This document shows, piece by piece, positions 18,897 to 58,319 of a DNA stretch of 64,000 bases (positions within the stretch are counted from its first letter, which is position 1; each line of letters opens with the position of its first letter). The notes under the pieces are model-generated. The model saw only the letters and a program-made list of their open reading frames with translations, was not told where the DNA came from and did not search any database. This DNA comes from Tautonia plasticadhaerens. GTDB taxonomy: Bacteria > Planctomycetota > Planctomycetia > Isosphaerales > Isosphaeraceae. The stretch is taken from NCBI RefSeq assembly GCF_007752535.1, contig NZ_CP036426.1, positions 7,688,001 to 7,752,000 of the forward strand. The letters run 5' to 3'. The translations under genes and the position numbers were made by a program.

Positions 18897-18998
18897 CAGA
18901 TCTCCCTCGCGGCCGAATCCTCGCCCGTCCCCGCCCGATCGATTCTACCCGACGTCCCCCCGTCGCCCAACGCCGGCCCCGAGGCTACAATCGGGGGC

Positions 18999-20519
18999 AT
19001 GAACGTCATCGTCATCGCCTGCAACGGCCTGCACCTGGGATTCCTCGGCCCGTACGGGAACCCCTGGATCGAGACGCCCAACCTCGACCGATTGGCGAGC
19101 GAGGGGGTCGTCTTCGACCACCACTACCCCGAGAACCTGACCACCCTGCCGACCCGGCGGAGCTGGTGGACCGGCCGCTACGGCTTCCACGACCCCGACC
19201 AGGGCTGGACCCCCCTGCGCCCCGACGAGCCGATCCTGCCGGACCTGCTCTACGACCGGGGGGTCCGGTCGGCCCTCATCTCCGACGTCCCGATGCTCCG
19301 GCAGGCCGGGCACGGCTTCGGCAGGGGGTTCGACGAGGTCGTCTGGATCCGGGGGCAGGGCTACGACCCCTACATCCTCCCGGATGACCCCCGGGCCTCG
19401 GGCGTCTCGCTCGACGACGAGCCCGGCCTGAGGCTGCCCCCCGAGGACGACCCCGACCGGGAGCTCTGGACCCTCCGCTGGGAGCAGTACCTCCGCAACC
19501 GGGCCGCCCTGGGGCTCGACACCGAGGAGAACGCCGGATCCGGCCGGGCCGTCCGGGCGGCGATCGACTGGCTGGAACGGTCGCAGGACGAGCCGGGGCC
19601 CTTCGCCCTCTGGCTCGACCTGTTCGGCCCCCACGGCCCCTGGGATCCCCCCGCCGCCGACCGGGACCGCTACGTCAGCGTCGAGCCCGACGACTTCGAG
19701 GCCGGCGAGGAAGGGGACCTCGACGAGCCCGACGACGAGGAGGGGAGGGAGGCCGAGGCCGAGGACCTGTTCGTCGAGGACGTCCCCGTCCTGATCGACG
19801 TGCCGCCGGGCCCGGTCGGCGACGTGATCTCCGAGGAGGAACTGTTCCGGCTCCGACGCACCTACGCCGGGTCCGTCACCGCGCTGGACCGCCAGATCGG
19901 CCACCTGTTCGACGCCCTCCGACGCCTCGGCCGCCTGGACGACACGCTCGTCGTCTTCACCTCCGACCAGGGGGAGCCGCTCGGCGAGCACGGCTTCGTC
20001 CGACGCTTCCGGCCCTGGCTGCACGAGGAGCTGGTGCACACCCCCCTGATCGTCCGCCTGCCCGGCGCCGAGCACGGGGGCAAGCGGCACCAGGCGATCG
20101 TCCAGTCGGTCGACCTGCTGCCGACGATCCTCTCGGCCCTCGACCCCGGCGCCCCGGCGGCCGACCCCGACCGCCCCGCTCCCCACGGCCGGGACCTGCT
20201 CGAACTGATCCGGGGCAAGGCCACCAAGTTCCGGGACTTCGCCTGCATGGGCATGGACGTGGAGGAGTTCGCGCTCCGGACCCACTACTGGCACCTCGTC
20301 GTGCCGATCGAGGCCGACCCCGACGACCCCCCCCGGTCCGTCGAGCTGTACCGCAAGCCCGAGGACCGCTGGGAGCAGAACGACGAGGCCGCCCGCCACC
20401 CCGACCTGATCGAGCACCTCGAGCTCGTCCTGCGCCGCTTCGTCGCCGCCGTCGAGCGCGACGACCTCTCCCAGGCCCTCCCCCTCCGGGAGCTGGCCCT
20501 CTTCCCCCCCCAGGTCTGA
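18999..20519 (+). CDS. Sulfatase-fold (alkaline phosphatase superfamily) enzyme with atypical nucleophile
   Basis: 506 aa, cytoplasmic (no signal peptide). Sulfatase architecture is clear: a first strand MNVIVIACNGLHLGFLGPYG, TPNLDRLASEGVVFDHHY, a nucleophile-region TTLPTRRSWWTGR, a metal-site VVFTSDQGEPLGEHG near residue 321 and HEELVHTPLIVRLPG. Two positions depart from the family. The formylglycine-precursor C/S of C/S-X-P-X-R is Thr49 (T-L-P-T-R), and the first metal-binding Asp pair is Asn9-Gly10. Thr is the nucleophile in phosphodiesterases and phosphoethanolamine transferases of the superfamily, so a phosphatase or transferase role, or loss of activity, is possible. An acidic insertion lies around residues 230-265. 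TACAAT at 18986 would give an almost leaderless mRNA. Confidence 0.85.
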   Translation: MNVIVIACNGLHLGFLGPYGNPWIETPNLDRLASEGVVFDHHYPENLTTLPTRRSWWTGRYGFHDPDQGWTPLRPDEPILPDLLYDRGVRSALISDVPMLRQAGHGFGRGFDEVVWIRGQGYDPYILPDDPRASGVSLDDEPGLRLPPEDDPDRELWTLRWEQYLRNRAALGLDTEENAGSGRAVRAAIDWLERSQDEPGPFALWLDLFGPHGPWDPPAADRDRYVSVEPDDFEAGEEGDLDEPDDEEGREAEAEDLFVEDVPVLIDVPPGPVGDVISEEELFRLRRTYAGSVTALDRQIGHLFDALRRLGRLDDTLVVFTSDQGEPLGEHGFVRRFRPWLHEELVHTPLIVRLPGAEHGGKRHQAIVQSVDLLPTILSALDPGAPAADPDRPAPHGRDLLELIRGKATKFRDFACMGMDVEEFALRTHYWHLVVPIEADPDDPPRSVELYRKPEDRWEQNDEAARHPDLIEHLELVLRRFVAAVERDDLSQALPLRELALFPPQV

Positions 20520-20584
20520 TCCCAAGCGGGGCCGGGCGGCCGACTTCCCCCGACCCGGGGCCCGGCCCCTCGCGCGACGCGAAG

Positions 20585-20625
20585 GGCCCCCGAGTCCTCC
20601 CGGGGTCGGGGGTGACTCGGGGGCC
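20585..20625. terminator. Hairpin between convergent genes
   Basis: A 12-bp perfect stem (GGCCCCCGAGTC at 20585-20596, GACTCGGGGGCC at 20614-20625) around a 17-base loop, between the sulfatase-like gene (stop 20519, plus) and the CsrA-like gene (stop 20665, minus). No T-tract, so termination is inferred from the stem and its location. Confidence 0.55.
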
Positions 20626-20664
20626 TCGGAGATACGGTCGGGTTGCCCGGCGATCGAGCCGGGG

Positions 20665-20967
20665 TCAATCCGGCTGGGGAACGAGCAGGGCCGGGACGGC
20701 CCCGGACTCCGGCTCGACCTCGACGACCGCCTCGGCGACGATCGGGGCCGGGGGGGCGAGGTCGCCCGCGGCGGCCGGCCTCGGCGTGGTCACCCGGCGC
20801 TCGGGGCGGCGGATCTCGAAGTTGCGGGCCGAGTCGTCGAAGGCGAGGTTGGCGCGGCTCGCCGAGCCGGCGACGGCCTGGATGTCGTAGACCCGCAGCC
20901 GGATCACGTCTCCGGAGCGATGGATGATCTCGATCCACTGACCTTCTTTGCGCTTGAGGACGAGCAT
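20665..20967 (-). CDS. CsrA-like RNA-binding regulator with C-terminal extension
   Basis: 100 aa from the ATG at 20967, which has GAAGGAAG 6 bases upstream. Residues 1-55 match the CsrA fold: MLVLKRKEGQWIEI at the start, IRLRVYDIQ in the middle, and ARNFEIRRPER at the end, placing an Arg where CsrA Arg44 contacts RNA. It differs from typical CsrA by a few inserted residues in the first loop (IIHRSGD) and by a Pro/Ala-rich, acidic 40-residue tail. CsrA proteins bind GGA motifs in mRNA leaders to control translation. It is the last gene of a three-gene leftward operon behind a sigma factor, an unusual partnership. The canonical GVNAPKE loop is replaced, so targets may differ. Confidence 0.8.
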   Translation of the reverse strand: MLVLKRKEGQWIEIIHRSGDVIRLRVYDIQAVAGSASRANLAFDDSARNFEIRRPERRVTTPRPAAAGDLAPPAPIVAEAVVEVEPESGAVPALLVPQPD

Positions 20968-21125
20968 CGTTTCTTCCTTCTCGTTGATTCGTTCGGTGCC
21001 AGTTCGTGGATGCCAGGTGCGGAGGCGTTCGTTCGATTGTTCAATCGCTCGGATCAATCATTCAACACGGACGCAGATTTCGACGTTCGGACTTCAGCAG
21101 GGGCGGTGGGGTCGGGCAGGGCTGG

Positions 21126-21749
21126 TCAGGCGCTGAGGGCGCGCCGGGGGCGGCCCCGGCGTCGGGGGGCGGGGGGCAGCGGGCGGGTGCCCGGGGCCCA
21201 GGTGCCGCCGAGCATGGCGAGCGCCTCGAGGTGGATGTAGGTGATCCTCGAGGGGGAGAAGCCGAGGCATCGGGCGACCTCGGCGTGGGTGCTCCCCTGG
21301 ACGTAGATCAGGCGGCAGACCTCGGCGTGCTGCCTCGGCAGCTTGCGGAGCCAGCCCTCGACCGCCTCGGCCGCCTCCAGCTCGTCGCCGACCCGGTGGC
21401 GGGCGACGGCCATCTCCTCGACCAGCGGCAGGCTCGCCGGCAGGCCGTCGGCGCCGCAGTGGCACTCGTGCTTGGCCCGGGAGAGGTGCTCGCGGCGGGT
21501 GTCCTGCAGGCCCCCCCAGATGCGCTGGCGGGCGAAGGTGGAGAACTTCACCTCACGCTCGGGCTCGAACGCCCGGGCCGCCTCGACCAGGGCGAGGCAG
21601 GCGGCCGACTCGAACTCCTCCCAGATGTCCGGCAATTGTTCCTTGAACGGCTTGGCCAGCGACCTCGCCATGGGCAGGTACTTGACCGCCAGCCGCTGCT
21701 GATCCTCCGTCAGCGGCTCTCGCTCCTTGCGCGTCTGCTCCGGGTGCAC
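21126..21749 (-). CDS. Sigma-70 family RNA polymerase sigma factor
   Basis: 207 aa, GTG start at 21749 with GGAGAG 6 bases upstream. Region 2: LAVKYLPMARSLAKPFKEQL, DIWEEFESAACLALVEAARA, then FEPEREVKFSTFARQRIWGG, the classic region 2.2-2.4 pattern found in SigB/SigF/FliA-like and RpoD-like factors rather than in ECF factors. Region 4: LRKLPRQHAEVCRLIYVQGS followed by the helix-turn-helix THAEVARCLGFSPSRITYIH. A Cys/His-rich spot (KHECHCG) lies between the domains and could be a redox- or metal-sensitive linker (inference). It is the middle gene of the operon with the CsrA-like gene 158 bases downstream. Confidence 0.87.
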   Translation of the reverse strand: MHPEQTRKEREPLTEDQQRLAVKYLPMARSLAKPFKEQLPDIWEEFESAACLALVEAARAFEPEREVKFSTFARQRIWGGLQDTRREHLSRAKHECHCGADGLPASLPLVEEMAVARHRVGDELEAAEAVEGWLRKLPRQHAEVCRLIYVQGSTHAEVARCLGFSPSRITYIHLEALAMLGGTWAPGTRPLPPAPRRRGRPRRALSA

Positions 21750-21809
21750 GGCGTCTCTCCGATGGGTGTTCGCCCCAAGATGTCATCCCAAGATTCACGC
21801 ATTTTGTCT

Positions 21810-22172
21810 TTAATTTAATTCGATCTGATCGACGCCCGCCGGCGGGCGGCCCAGCAGGGCCCTCGCCTCGACGCGGTTGGCCCTCAGGTGTGCCAGCACG
21901 GCCGATCGCCTCAGCCGCGCCCGCTCCAACTGCGCCATCGCCAGGGCGGCGTTGCACCCCGGCTCCCCCAGGTACGCCCAGGCCCGTCGGCACTGGCCTC
22001 GCACCCGATCCAGCTCCGCGAGGAGCCGTTCGTTCTCCCGGACCAGGCGGACCAGCCGCCCGAACTCGTCCCCGGTGGATTGCCCGGCCCGCCCCTCGCC
22101 ATCGAGGACGTCGCCGTGCCCTGCCCCCTCGGCCGCGAGGCCGACGAAGCCGTCGAATGATGTGATCGCCAT
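21810..22172 (-). CDS. Unknown 120-aa protein, first gene of the sigma/CsrA-like operon
   Basis: ATG at 22172 gives MAITSFDGFVGLAAEG then a Glu/Arg-rich helical stretch EFGRLVRLVRENERLLAELD that may form a coiled coil, and CRRAWAYLGEPGCNAALAMA and LRRSAVLAHLRANRVEARAL. An in-frame ATG-ATG at 22250 would add 26 residues. No family is recognised. It is all-helical in appearance, and its stop (overlapping TTAATTTAATT) is 60 bases before the sigma factor start. Being the first gene behind a strong promoter, it could be a regulator or partner of the sigma factor, but that is only context. Ribosome-binding signal is weak for the chosen start. Confidence 0.55.
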   Translation of the reverse strand: MAITSFDGFVGLAAEGAGHGDVLDGEGRAGQSTGDEFGRLVRLVRENERLLAELDRVRGQCRRAWAYLGEPGCNAALAMAQLERARLRRSAVLAHLRANRVEARALLGRPPAGVDQIELN

Positions 22173-22279
22173 CTTGGTGTGTTCCGATGAGCTCGGTTGC
22201 CAGCTTCGGCAATTCTCGCGGGTCGCGTCGGCCGCCTCTGCGCTCATCATCGAGTTCGCATCGACCTCACGCCCGCACG

Positions 22280-22326
22280 CTCACCTCCTTGCACTTTTAG
22301 TATGAACCGGGATTCCGGACCGTCAA
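22280..22326 (-). promoter_or_regulatory. Promoter and strong Shine-Dalgarno of the leftward sigma/CsrA-like operon
   Basis: Reading leftward: an A-rich upstream tract, TTGACG (22326-22321), a 16-base spacer, CATACT (22304-22299; TACTAA with an 18-base spacer is an alternative), then AAGGAGGTGA (22290-22281). The SD is followed after 2 bases by GTG-CGG-GCG-TGA, a four-codon reading frame, not by the annotated gene, whose start is 108 bases further. The arrangement suggests a regulated leader. The sequence is far more A/T-rich than its surroundings (22290-22440). Confidence 0.6.
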
Positions 22327-22614
22327 GGAAAACTTTGCCGATTAGGAGCTTTTTTTGTCCGATCAACGATCCGATATCCCAACTTGGCGTCCTTCTGCGG
22401 CCATCATCGCCTTGTTTTTCCTTGCATGAGGAGATCTACGACGCCCCTCGGCGGAAGTCTCCGCGGGATCGAAAAAATCCGGATGATCCGTCGCAATCGC
22501 CCCGACCCCGGGGGCGGGCACCCCGCCAGGCCCCCTGGTGGGGTGGGGGTGGATACAATGTCCCGGGGCCGACCCGGTCGGGGCGGCCGGCCGGGGTTCC
22601 GGAGGCGAGGGGCG

Positions 22615-23817
22615 ATGGGGAGACGGAGCGGGGCAGGCGGCCCGGGGAGTCGGCCGGGGGGCCCGGGGCCCTCGGGGCCGGACCTCGACCCGGGCTGGGT
22701 CGATCGGGCCCGGCGGGCCATGCTCCTCTGGTTCGACCGCGAGGGGAGGGCCGGGCTCCCCTGGAGGCTCGACCGGGACCCGTACAAGGTGCTCGTCGCC
22801 GAGGTCATGCTCGTGCAGACGACCGTGACCGCGGTCGGGCCCTTCTTCTCCCGGTTCGTCGCCCGGTTCCCGACGGCCGAGGCGCTCGCCTCGGCCGACG
22901 AGGCCGACGTGCTCAAGGCCTGGGAGGGCCTGGGCTACTACCGGAGGGCCCGGCTGCTCCAGGCCGCCGCCCGGGCCCTCGTCGAGCGACACGGGGGCCG
23001 GGTCCCCGAGGACCCCGGGGCGATCCGGGCCCTCCCCGGGGTCGGCCGCTACATCGCCGGGGCCGTCTCCTCGATCGCCTTCGACCTGCCCGAGCCGATC
23101 CTGGAAGCGAACACCCAGCGCGTCCTGGCCCGATGGCTCTCCTGGCCGGAGGACGTCCGATCGACCCGGTCCCAGGCCAGGCTCTGGGAGGCCGCCGCCC
23201 GGCTCGTCCCCCCCGAGGGGGCCGGCCGGTTCAACCAGGCGATGATGGACCTCGGGGCGACCATCTGCACCCCCCGGGCCCCGCGCTGCCTGGCCTGCCC
23301 CGCGGCCGACCTCTGCCTCGCCCGACGGGAGGGGCTCCAGGACGACCTGCCCCGGCGGTCGACCCCCACCCCCCCCCTGGAGGTCTCCGAGGACTGCGTC
23401 CTCGCCCTCGACGGCCTCGGCCGGCTGCTCGTCGTCCGGCGCTCCCCCGGCCGCCTCTGGGAGCACTTCTACGAGTTCCCGACCGTCCACCTCTCGGGCG
23501 CCGACCCCGCCGGACGGGGGCCCGGGGGCGGCGACCCGGAGGATCTCGGCCCTCGCCTCCGGGAGCTGACCGGCGTCTCCCTCCGGATCGGCCCGGTCGT
23601 CCGGGCGATCCGGTACGGGGTGACGAAGCACCGGGTCACCCTGGGGGCCCGGGTCGCCTCCCCGGTCGGGGGCGAGCCGAGGCCCGGCCCCGGCCTCTCG
23701 GCCGTCGAATGGCTGTCCCCGGAGGCGCTCGACGGGCTCCCCCGCACTGGGGCCACCCGTCGCCTCTCGGCCTGGGCCGCCGCAAACCCCGAGGCCCTCC
23801 AGCTCCCGACTCCCTGA
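22615..23817 (+). CDS. mutY: A/G-specific adenine glycosylase
   Basis: 400 aa base-excision DNA glycosylase that removes adenine mispaired with 8-oxoG. Start at 22615 has GGAGGCGAGGGG just upstream. The EndoIII fold: LPWRLDRDPYKVLVAEVMLV (catalytic Glu about 63), LKAWEGLGYYRRARLLQAA, HhH motif ALPGVGRYIAGAV near 140, then ILEANTQRVLAR, and FNQAMMDLGATIC. The [4Fe-4S] loop is C218-X6-C225-X2-C228-X5-C234. The C-terminal NUDIX-like domain that reads 8-oxoG starts near 258 (CVLALDGLGRLLVVRRS) and includes LWEHFYEFPTVHL. The catalytic Asp of E. coli MutY (ILDGN) is Glu164 here, and QQTQ is VQTT. TACAAT lies at 22554. Confidence 0.9.
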   Translation: MGRRSGAGGPGSRPGGPGPSGPDLDPGWVDRARRAMLLWFDREGRAGLPWRLDRDPYKVLVAEVMLVQTTVTAVGPFFSRFVARFPTAEALASADEADVLKAWEGLGYYRRARLLQAAARALVERHGGRVPEDPGAIRALPGVGRYIAGAVSSIAFDLPEPILEANTQRVLARWLSWPEDVRSTRSQARLWEAAARLVPPEGAGRFNQAMMDLGATICTPRAPRCLACPAADLCLARREGLQDDLPRRSTPTPPLEVSEDCVLALDGLGRLLVVRRSPGRLWEHFYEFPTVHLSGADPAGRGPGGGDPEDLGPRLRELTGVSLRIGPVVRAIRYGVTKHRVTLGARVASPVGGEPRPGPGLSAVEWLSPEALDGLPRTGATRRLSAWAAANPEALQLPTP

Positions 23818-58074: not shown

Positions 58075-58319
58075 GGGTGCCTCAGCTCCTCCCTGACCTC
58101 CCTGAACACCTCCTCGGCCGGGATCGAATCCAGTTCCCCTGAGTCATGGGCCGCGATCCGAGATTCGGCCTCCTCGGCGATGAGCCGATCGATCCGCGGA
58201 TCGATCGGGGCCAGGCTCGCGAGCAGAGACTCCGCGAGGATCGCCCGATCCTGCTCGGACAGCGCCAGTGCGTCGGAAAGCAGGCGATGGAGCTCCGGCG
58301 AGAGCGTCACATTCGGCAT
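58071..58319 (-). CDS. Addiction-module antitoxin (TIGR02574-like)
   Basis: 82 aa. ATG at 58319 follows GGGAGGA. Pattern: NVTLSPELHRLLSDALALSE, QDRAILAESLLASLAPIDPR, IAEEAESRIAAHDSGELDSI, PAEEVFREVREELRHP. This is the putative addiction-module antitoxin family that pairs with ParE/RelE toxins. The stop overlaps the toxin GTG (GTGA). Such antitoxins keep the partner inactive and repress the operon. The adjacent M20 peptidase gene upstream has a 15-base gap. Confidence 0.88.
   Translation of the reverse strand: MPNVTLSPELHRLLSDALALSEQDRAILAESLLASLAPIDPRIDRLIAEEAESRIAAHDSGELDSIPAEEVFREVREELRHP

Follow-up and report, generated by a model that had tools for sequence, protein, structure and literature searches.

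A conserved operon of a sigma-70 factor, a divergent CsrA homolog and a hairpin protein in Isosphaeraceae, with copies in their phages

An alternative sigma factor chooses the genes that are transcribed, and CsrA is an RNA-binding regulator; the link between transcription initiation and control at the mRNA level is usually made by regulators that are separate and distant. A locus in the chromosome of Tautonia plasticadhaerens ElP raises the question of whether both levels of control can be encoded in one conserved operon. We analysed a window of 64,000 nucleotides around it (NZ_CP036426.1, positions 7688001 to 7752000), in which a first-pass annotation had described three leftward genes behind a TTGACG/CATACT promoter, coupling a sigma factor to a CsrA-family protein. 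The genome as used here comprises 9,395,224 bases in 6 contigs; the published genome consists of an 8.67 Mb chromosome and five plasmids (PMC7716859). The features discussed below are as follows, numbered from the first base of the window.

22299 to 22326, minus strand: sigma-70-type promoter TTGACG-N16-CATACT, the sole promoter-like site in 20400 to 22500
22173 to 22294, minus strand: 5′ leader of ~122 nt, predicted to be structured, with 88% mean column identity in four Tautonia species
22283 to 22294, minus strand: CsrA-SELEX-like site GTGCAAGGAGGT at the predicted 5′ end of the mRNA
21810 to 22172, minus strand: g3, 120 aa, a predicted two-helix hairpin (residues 32–68 and 75–107) of no known family
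21126 to 21749, minus strand: sigma-70 family factor, 207 aa, with regions 2 and 4, above the Pfam cut-offs
20967 (ATG) to 20665, minus strand: csrL, encoding CsrL, a divergent CsrA homolog of 100 aa with an acidic tail, identified by hhalign to canonical CsrA

The ORF list of the window bears out the three leftward genes, with g3, sigma and csrL in the order of transcription. They are flanked by a divergent mutY-type glycosylase gene (22384 to 23817, plus strand) and a convergent sulfatase gene (18906 to 20516, plus strand). The proposed promoter is present ahead of the trio: one promoter-type site was observed in 20400 to 22500, against 0.0 expected from shuffled sequences, and its TTGACG and TCATAnT elements are invariant in all four Tautonia genomes. 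The placement of a sigma factor and a CsrA-family protein in one operon is supported, and the g3-sigma-csrL operon is real. Sigma and csrL are separated by a gap of 158 nt (20968 to 21125), which contains repeated ACCTGG-like elements that are conserved in Tautonia and are possibly a second regulatory element.

The resemblance of CsrL to CsrA, noted at first pass, is more than a chance one. CsrL scores 18.6 bits against the Pfam CsrA profile (PF02599) and does not reach the cut-off of 27, but hhalign matched the CsrL family to canonical CsrA over the whole five-strand domain (columns 1–61 to 1–53) with a probability of 95.3% and an E-value of 2.2e-8. Judged by its sequence, CsrL is a genuine, if distant, member of the CsrA family. 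Like CsrA/RsmA, it is small and keeps the key positions: L4, R6, R44 (R54 in CsrL) and E46 (E56) are invariant in the joint alignment with canonical CsrAs, and V42 of CsrA is I52 in CsrL. L4 and R44 are reported to be critical for RNA binding by CsrA (PMC7652899). Unlike CsrA/RsmA, CsrL has the four-residue insert HRSG between the β2 and β3 strands and up to five additional residues between β3 and β4, carries invariant W11 and H16 residues, and is encoded next to a sigma factor. The altered loop and the acidic extension ascribed to it are both present. In the loop, GIEAPKEV of CsrA is changed to AFDDsARNF, so that AFDDxARN replaces the G-x-x-AP motif, and the acidic tail is variable, with no conservation outside the genus. 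The β4-β5 loop contacts RNA in CsrA, and since this loop is changed, the RNA specificity of CsrL may differ. The CsrA fold is an interlocked dimer; the AlphaFold2 model of CsrL, a single chain of this dimer-forming family, has a pLDDT of 64 with strands at residues 11–15, 21–30 and 38–43, and Foldseek found no CsrA match to this low-confidence monomer, returning meaningless matches.

Canonical CsrAs are encoded in all 45 Isosphaeraceae genomes, at 4–13 per genome, and CsrL is therefore an addition to them and not a replacement. The T. plasticadhaerens genome has canonical CsrA at 10 places, and the paralog expansion in the family is unusual. In Planctomycetes bacterium Pan216 (L105:4001-4192), a canonical CsrA has the N-terminus of CsrL (MLVLRRKEGQWI) and could be a sequence bridge between the two; as an intermediate CsrA it was rejected, because its C-terminal half makes the protein a canonical one. 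Inspection of the listed neighbouring ORFs, made without a profile scan, revealed no sigma gene.

The sigma factor is of the regions 2+4 type, as first described. Both Pfam regions score above their cut-offs (Sigma70_r2, 31.4 bits; Sigma70_r4, 27.5 bits), as does TIGR02937 (51.9 against 42.9), and no match to region 3 was found. As in the FliA/WhiG group 3 sigma factors, to which its region 2 is nearest, its region 4 is of the non-ECF kind. Unlike them, it lacks region 3, and its FliA_WhiG score of 65.8, against a cut-off of 189.6, comes from two separate stretches, the protein being shorter than the 224-position model. Assignment to the FliA/WhiG subfamily was therefore rejected, and so was assignment to the ECF subfamily (PF08281, 18.3 against 25.7; PF07638, 13.7 against 21.1). 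A separate FliA-like sigma factor is encoded near flhA in the T. plasticadhaerens genome. The Cys/His cluster to which the first-pass annotation drew attention did not hold up: HECHC in the window reads NECQL, NECQL and NECRA in the other Tautonia, and a metal site was rejected on this lack of conservation even within the genus. Orthologs of the sigma factor are found family-wide in Isosphaeraceae, and we regard it as very likely to be functional. Eight of the orthologs from loci that lack csrL (L067, L074, L076, L077, L079, L080, L082 and L083) carry, in their N-termini before the sigma domain, repeated motifs that resemble F-x-x-RTNPNRP and YPARCNP.

The remaining gene, g3, encodes an unknown protein, as had been stated, with no match in Pfam, NCBIfam or PHROG. 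We prefer the ATG at 22172 over position 22250 as its start, because the upstream DNA forms a conserved leader in which the reading frame changes from species to species. The core of its AlphaFold2 model has a pLDDT of about 95, and a fold search returned generic helical hairpins only, none with an E-value below 0.001. A FlgN/FlgM-type partner identity was rejected, since one of 18 members reaches FlgN, with an E-value of 0.088, and the window protein matches nothing. Beyond the window, the gene is kept at 17 chromosomal loci of the family, one of these cases being weak, and in a prophage.

Gene order proved to be conserved in relatives. Searches of related genomes and a neighbourhood map placed the full trio beside mutY, in the same order and strand, in 10 genomes of 7 genera (the window and loci L059, L060, L061, L063, L064, L065, L066, L069 and L072). 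The trio is not obligatory across the family: three more genomes have sigma and csrL without a visible g3, the contig ending in two of the three, two genomes of one genus have g3 and csrL without sigma (L090 and L091), and many others have g3 and sigma or sigma alone, with csrL absent. In total, CsrL was found in 16 of the 45 Isosphaeraceae genomes. Searches for CsrL and g3 in about 390 other genomes from across the phylum were negative; since they score only 11–12 candidates per genome, they could have missed rare or diverged copies outside the family. Eleven csrL-less entries of the sigma tree form one supported clade (99/97) and other csrL-less entries lie elsewhere, a topology that fits either one loss of csrL or its acquisition at a later stage.

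The module also occurs in phages. A second g3-sigma-csrL set lies in the T. plasticadhaerens chromosome at 2.40–2.41 Mb, inside an HK97-type prophage, in the order g3, sigma, a CAP-domain protein with small ORFs, csrL, HNH, TerS and TerL. Here g3 overlaps the sigma gene. PHROG matches around this trio comprise an HNH nuclease, TerS, TerL, portal, HK97-type capsid, head-tail connectors, major tail protein, tape measure, repressor and integrase. The prophage (L058, L133 and L134; about 2.38–2.415 Mb) looks complete, and the CAP-domain protein encoded between its sigma and csrL genes belongs to PF00188. Genome G027 has a second csrL, located in a prophage, which shares 17 bases with the 3′ end of a divergently oriented sigma gene; tail genes come next. 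Among IMG/VR contigs, L135 carries a major tail gene, then sigma and csrL separated by 42 bp and, farther along, genes for Erf and primase; L143 has csrL immediately upstream of the genes for TerS, TerL, portal, protease and capsid; and L136 has csrL after structural-looking genes without PHROG names, with a g3-like ORF 3.2 kb on. No sigma gene was recognised in the stretch read of either L143 or L136. In all, two prophages and three IMG/VR contigs carry csrL, each time among or adjacent to late structural genes. In cultured phage genomes, tblastn found no CsrL. Three further contigs, L137, L138 and L139, encode remote relatives of the sigma factor, with no CsrL recognised in the available stretch.

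These copies bear on two other accounts of the locus. According to the first, the cassette is a late-gene switch that evolved in phages, and the copy beside mutY is a domesticated prophage remnant. The constant location of csrL within or beside the late region of the five phage elements speaks for such an origin, as does the match of the window sigma factor to PHROG sigma families, but the chromosomal site beside mutY is syntenic across the family and the genes that border the trio there are not of phage type. Moreover, in the unrooted sigma tree, the viral sigma factor of L135 is the sister of the Tautonia chromosomal copies (96/92), and the CsrL of the G027 prophage groups with its own host genus (93/96). 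Because of these two groupings, capture of the module genes by phages from their hosts fits better; on these phylogenies capture is favoured, though not proven, and we consider a phage origin of the cassette improbable. The second account holds that the locus is a conserved regulatory islet of fortuitous neighbours, three genes that act separately, in line with the finding of each gene without another in some genomes. Against it, order and orientation are kept in 7 genera, and the second copy retains the trio inside a prophage, with sigma and csrL overlapping by 17 bases in another prophage and lying 42 bp apart in a viral contig. We think it quite improbable that the three genes are mere neighbours. 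We explain the locus best as a two-layer regulatory operon specific to the Isosphaeraceae lineage, a reading to which we give a probability of about 0.6.

The leader between the promoter and g3 has a bearing on how such an operon might be controlled. Its conservation is known from four congeneric genomes and, because indels shift the frame between species, is not that of a protein-coding sequence. The consensus fold is a predicted three-way junction, with a P1 helix (GGUGAG/CUCACC) that ends next to GGAAC, 9 nt before the g3 ATG. Two pairs show compensatory changes among the four sequences, and their support for the fold is suggestive only: 16 of 500 shuffles reached the covariation score, the count of covarying pairs was no better than in shuffles, and the fold has a z-score of −1.8. 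When a CsrA-binding site was looked for in the leader of the operon itself, nucleotides 1–12 (GUGCARGGAGGU) were found to agree at 10 of 12 positions with the CsrA SELEX consensus RUACARGGAUGU in all four Tautonia species, a level of agreement reached by 0.3–0.6% of shuffled leaders. The operon thereby resembles E. coli csrA, with candidate GGA sites in its own leader; the E. coli csrA leader carries such sites (PMC7652899). Another SELEX-like match, at 58107, was rejected because it sits at the 3′ end of an ORF, outside any leader. The covariance model of the leader (R1) gave strong E-values at the four Tautonia operons only, and its search of the family genomes returned no credible copy beyond these orthologous sites as a regulon signature. 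No Rfam match was found, and assignment to a known riboswitch or RNA family was rejected.

The leader site also enters into the question of whether CsrL acts on RNA at all. CsrL could instead have diverged, within the CsrA fold, into a protein partner, for instance of sigma or g3, that has lost RNA binding, with no control at the mRNA level. The AP-containing β4-β5 loop is lost, both neighbouring loops have insertions, the protein falls below the Pfam cut-off, and every family genome already has its canonical CsrAs, all of which would suit a role of this kind. Against it stand the invariance of the L4, R6, R44 and E46 equivalents, the presence of CsrL without a recognisable sigma factor in G005, G024, L136 and L143, and the candidate SELEX-like site in the operon leader. 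We therefore hold a purely protein-binding CsrL to be unlikely, and the retained residues suggest that CsrL probably binds RNA.

No described CsrA and sigma operon, and no such system in planctomycetes, was found in the open-access full text, which does not prove its absence; in that literature, the arrangement is unlike described systems, as the first-pass annotation had it. Among the nearest known systems, the CsrA-FliW-flagellin switch of B. subtilis and Campylobacter likewise places CsrA in a small circuit with a protein partner, but the Tautonia operon has no FliW-like gene. A flagellar circuit (FliA-CsrA-FliW) was rejected, because flhA is present in 42 of the 45 family genomes irrespective of csrL and T. 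plasticadhaerens has been reported to be non-motile (PMC7716859). Phage CsrA-like regulators are known as families (PHROG 9500, 5527 and 8397), being CsrA homologs carried on phages as CsrL is; unlike them, CsrL matches none of these families and pairs with sigma and g3.

Gene identity, synteny, the conservation of promoter and leader, and the prophage and viral copies are observed; from them we infer every biochemical action of the operon products. The housekeeping-type promoter would transcribe g3, sigma and csrL together, and the sigma factor, with its core-binding and promoter-binding regions 2 and 4, would redirect RNA polymerase to a regulon. CsrL would bind mRNA through the conserved CsrA surface and probably limit its own operon through contact with two sites, the SELEX-like GGA at the 5′ end and the GGA just before the g3 start, the two being brought together by the predicted P1 helix. 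Such autoregulation is conceivable, at somewhat less than even odds. Because g3 lies just ahead of the sigma gene, and overlaps it in the prophage copy, an interaction between the two products is proposed, in which g3 would most likely bind and modulate sigma; this is the least certain step, and we put forward g3 as a sigma partner tentatively. The phage copies, whether the module or CsrL alone, may time late transcription and translation, a role suggested by their position and held with similar reserve. Taken as a whole, a two-level switch, with an alternative sigma factor, a dedicated CsrA-type protein and a structured autoregulatory leader, chromosomal in Isosphaeraceae and repeatedly recruited by their phages for joint control of late-gene transcription and translation, possibly in cross-talk with the host copy, is a speculative picture that we consider rather doubtful in its entirety.

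For the family, the operon would mean that both control levels are encoded in one conserved unit that is also carried by phages, in hosts that have many CsrA paralogs (4–13 per genome) and a post-transcriptional biology of which little is known. For co-regulation by sigma and CsrA it offers a small unit that lends itself to testing, and for phage late genes a candidate new route of control.
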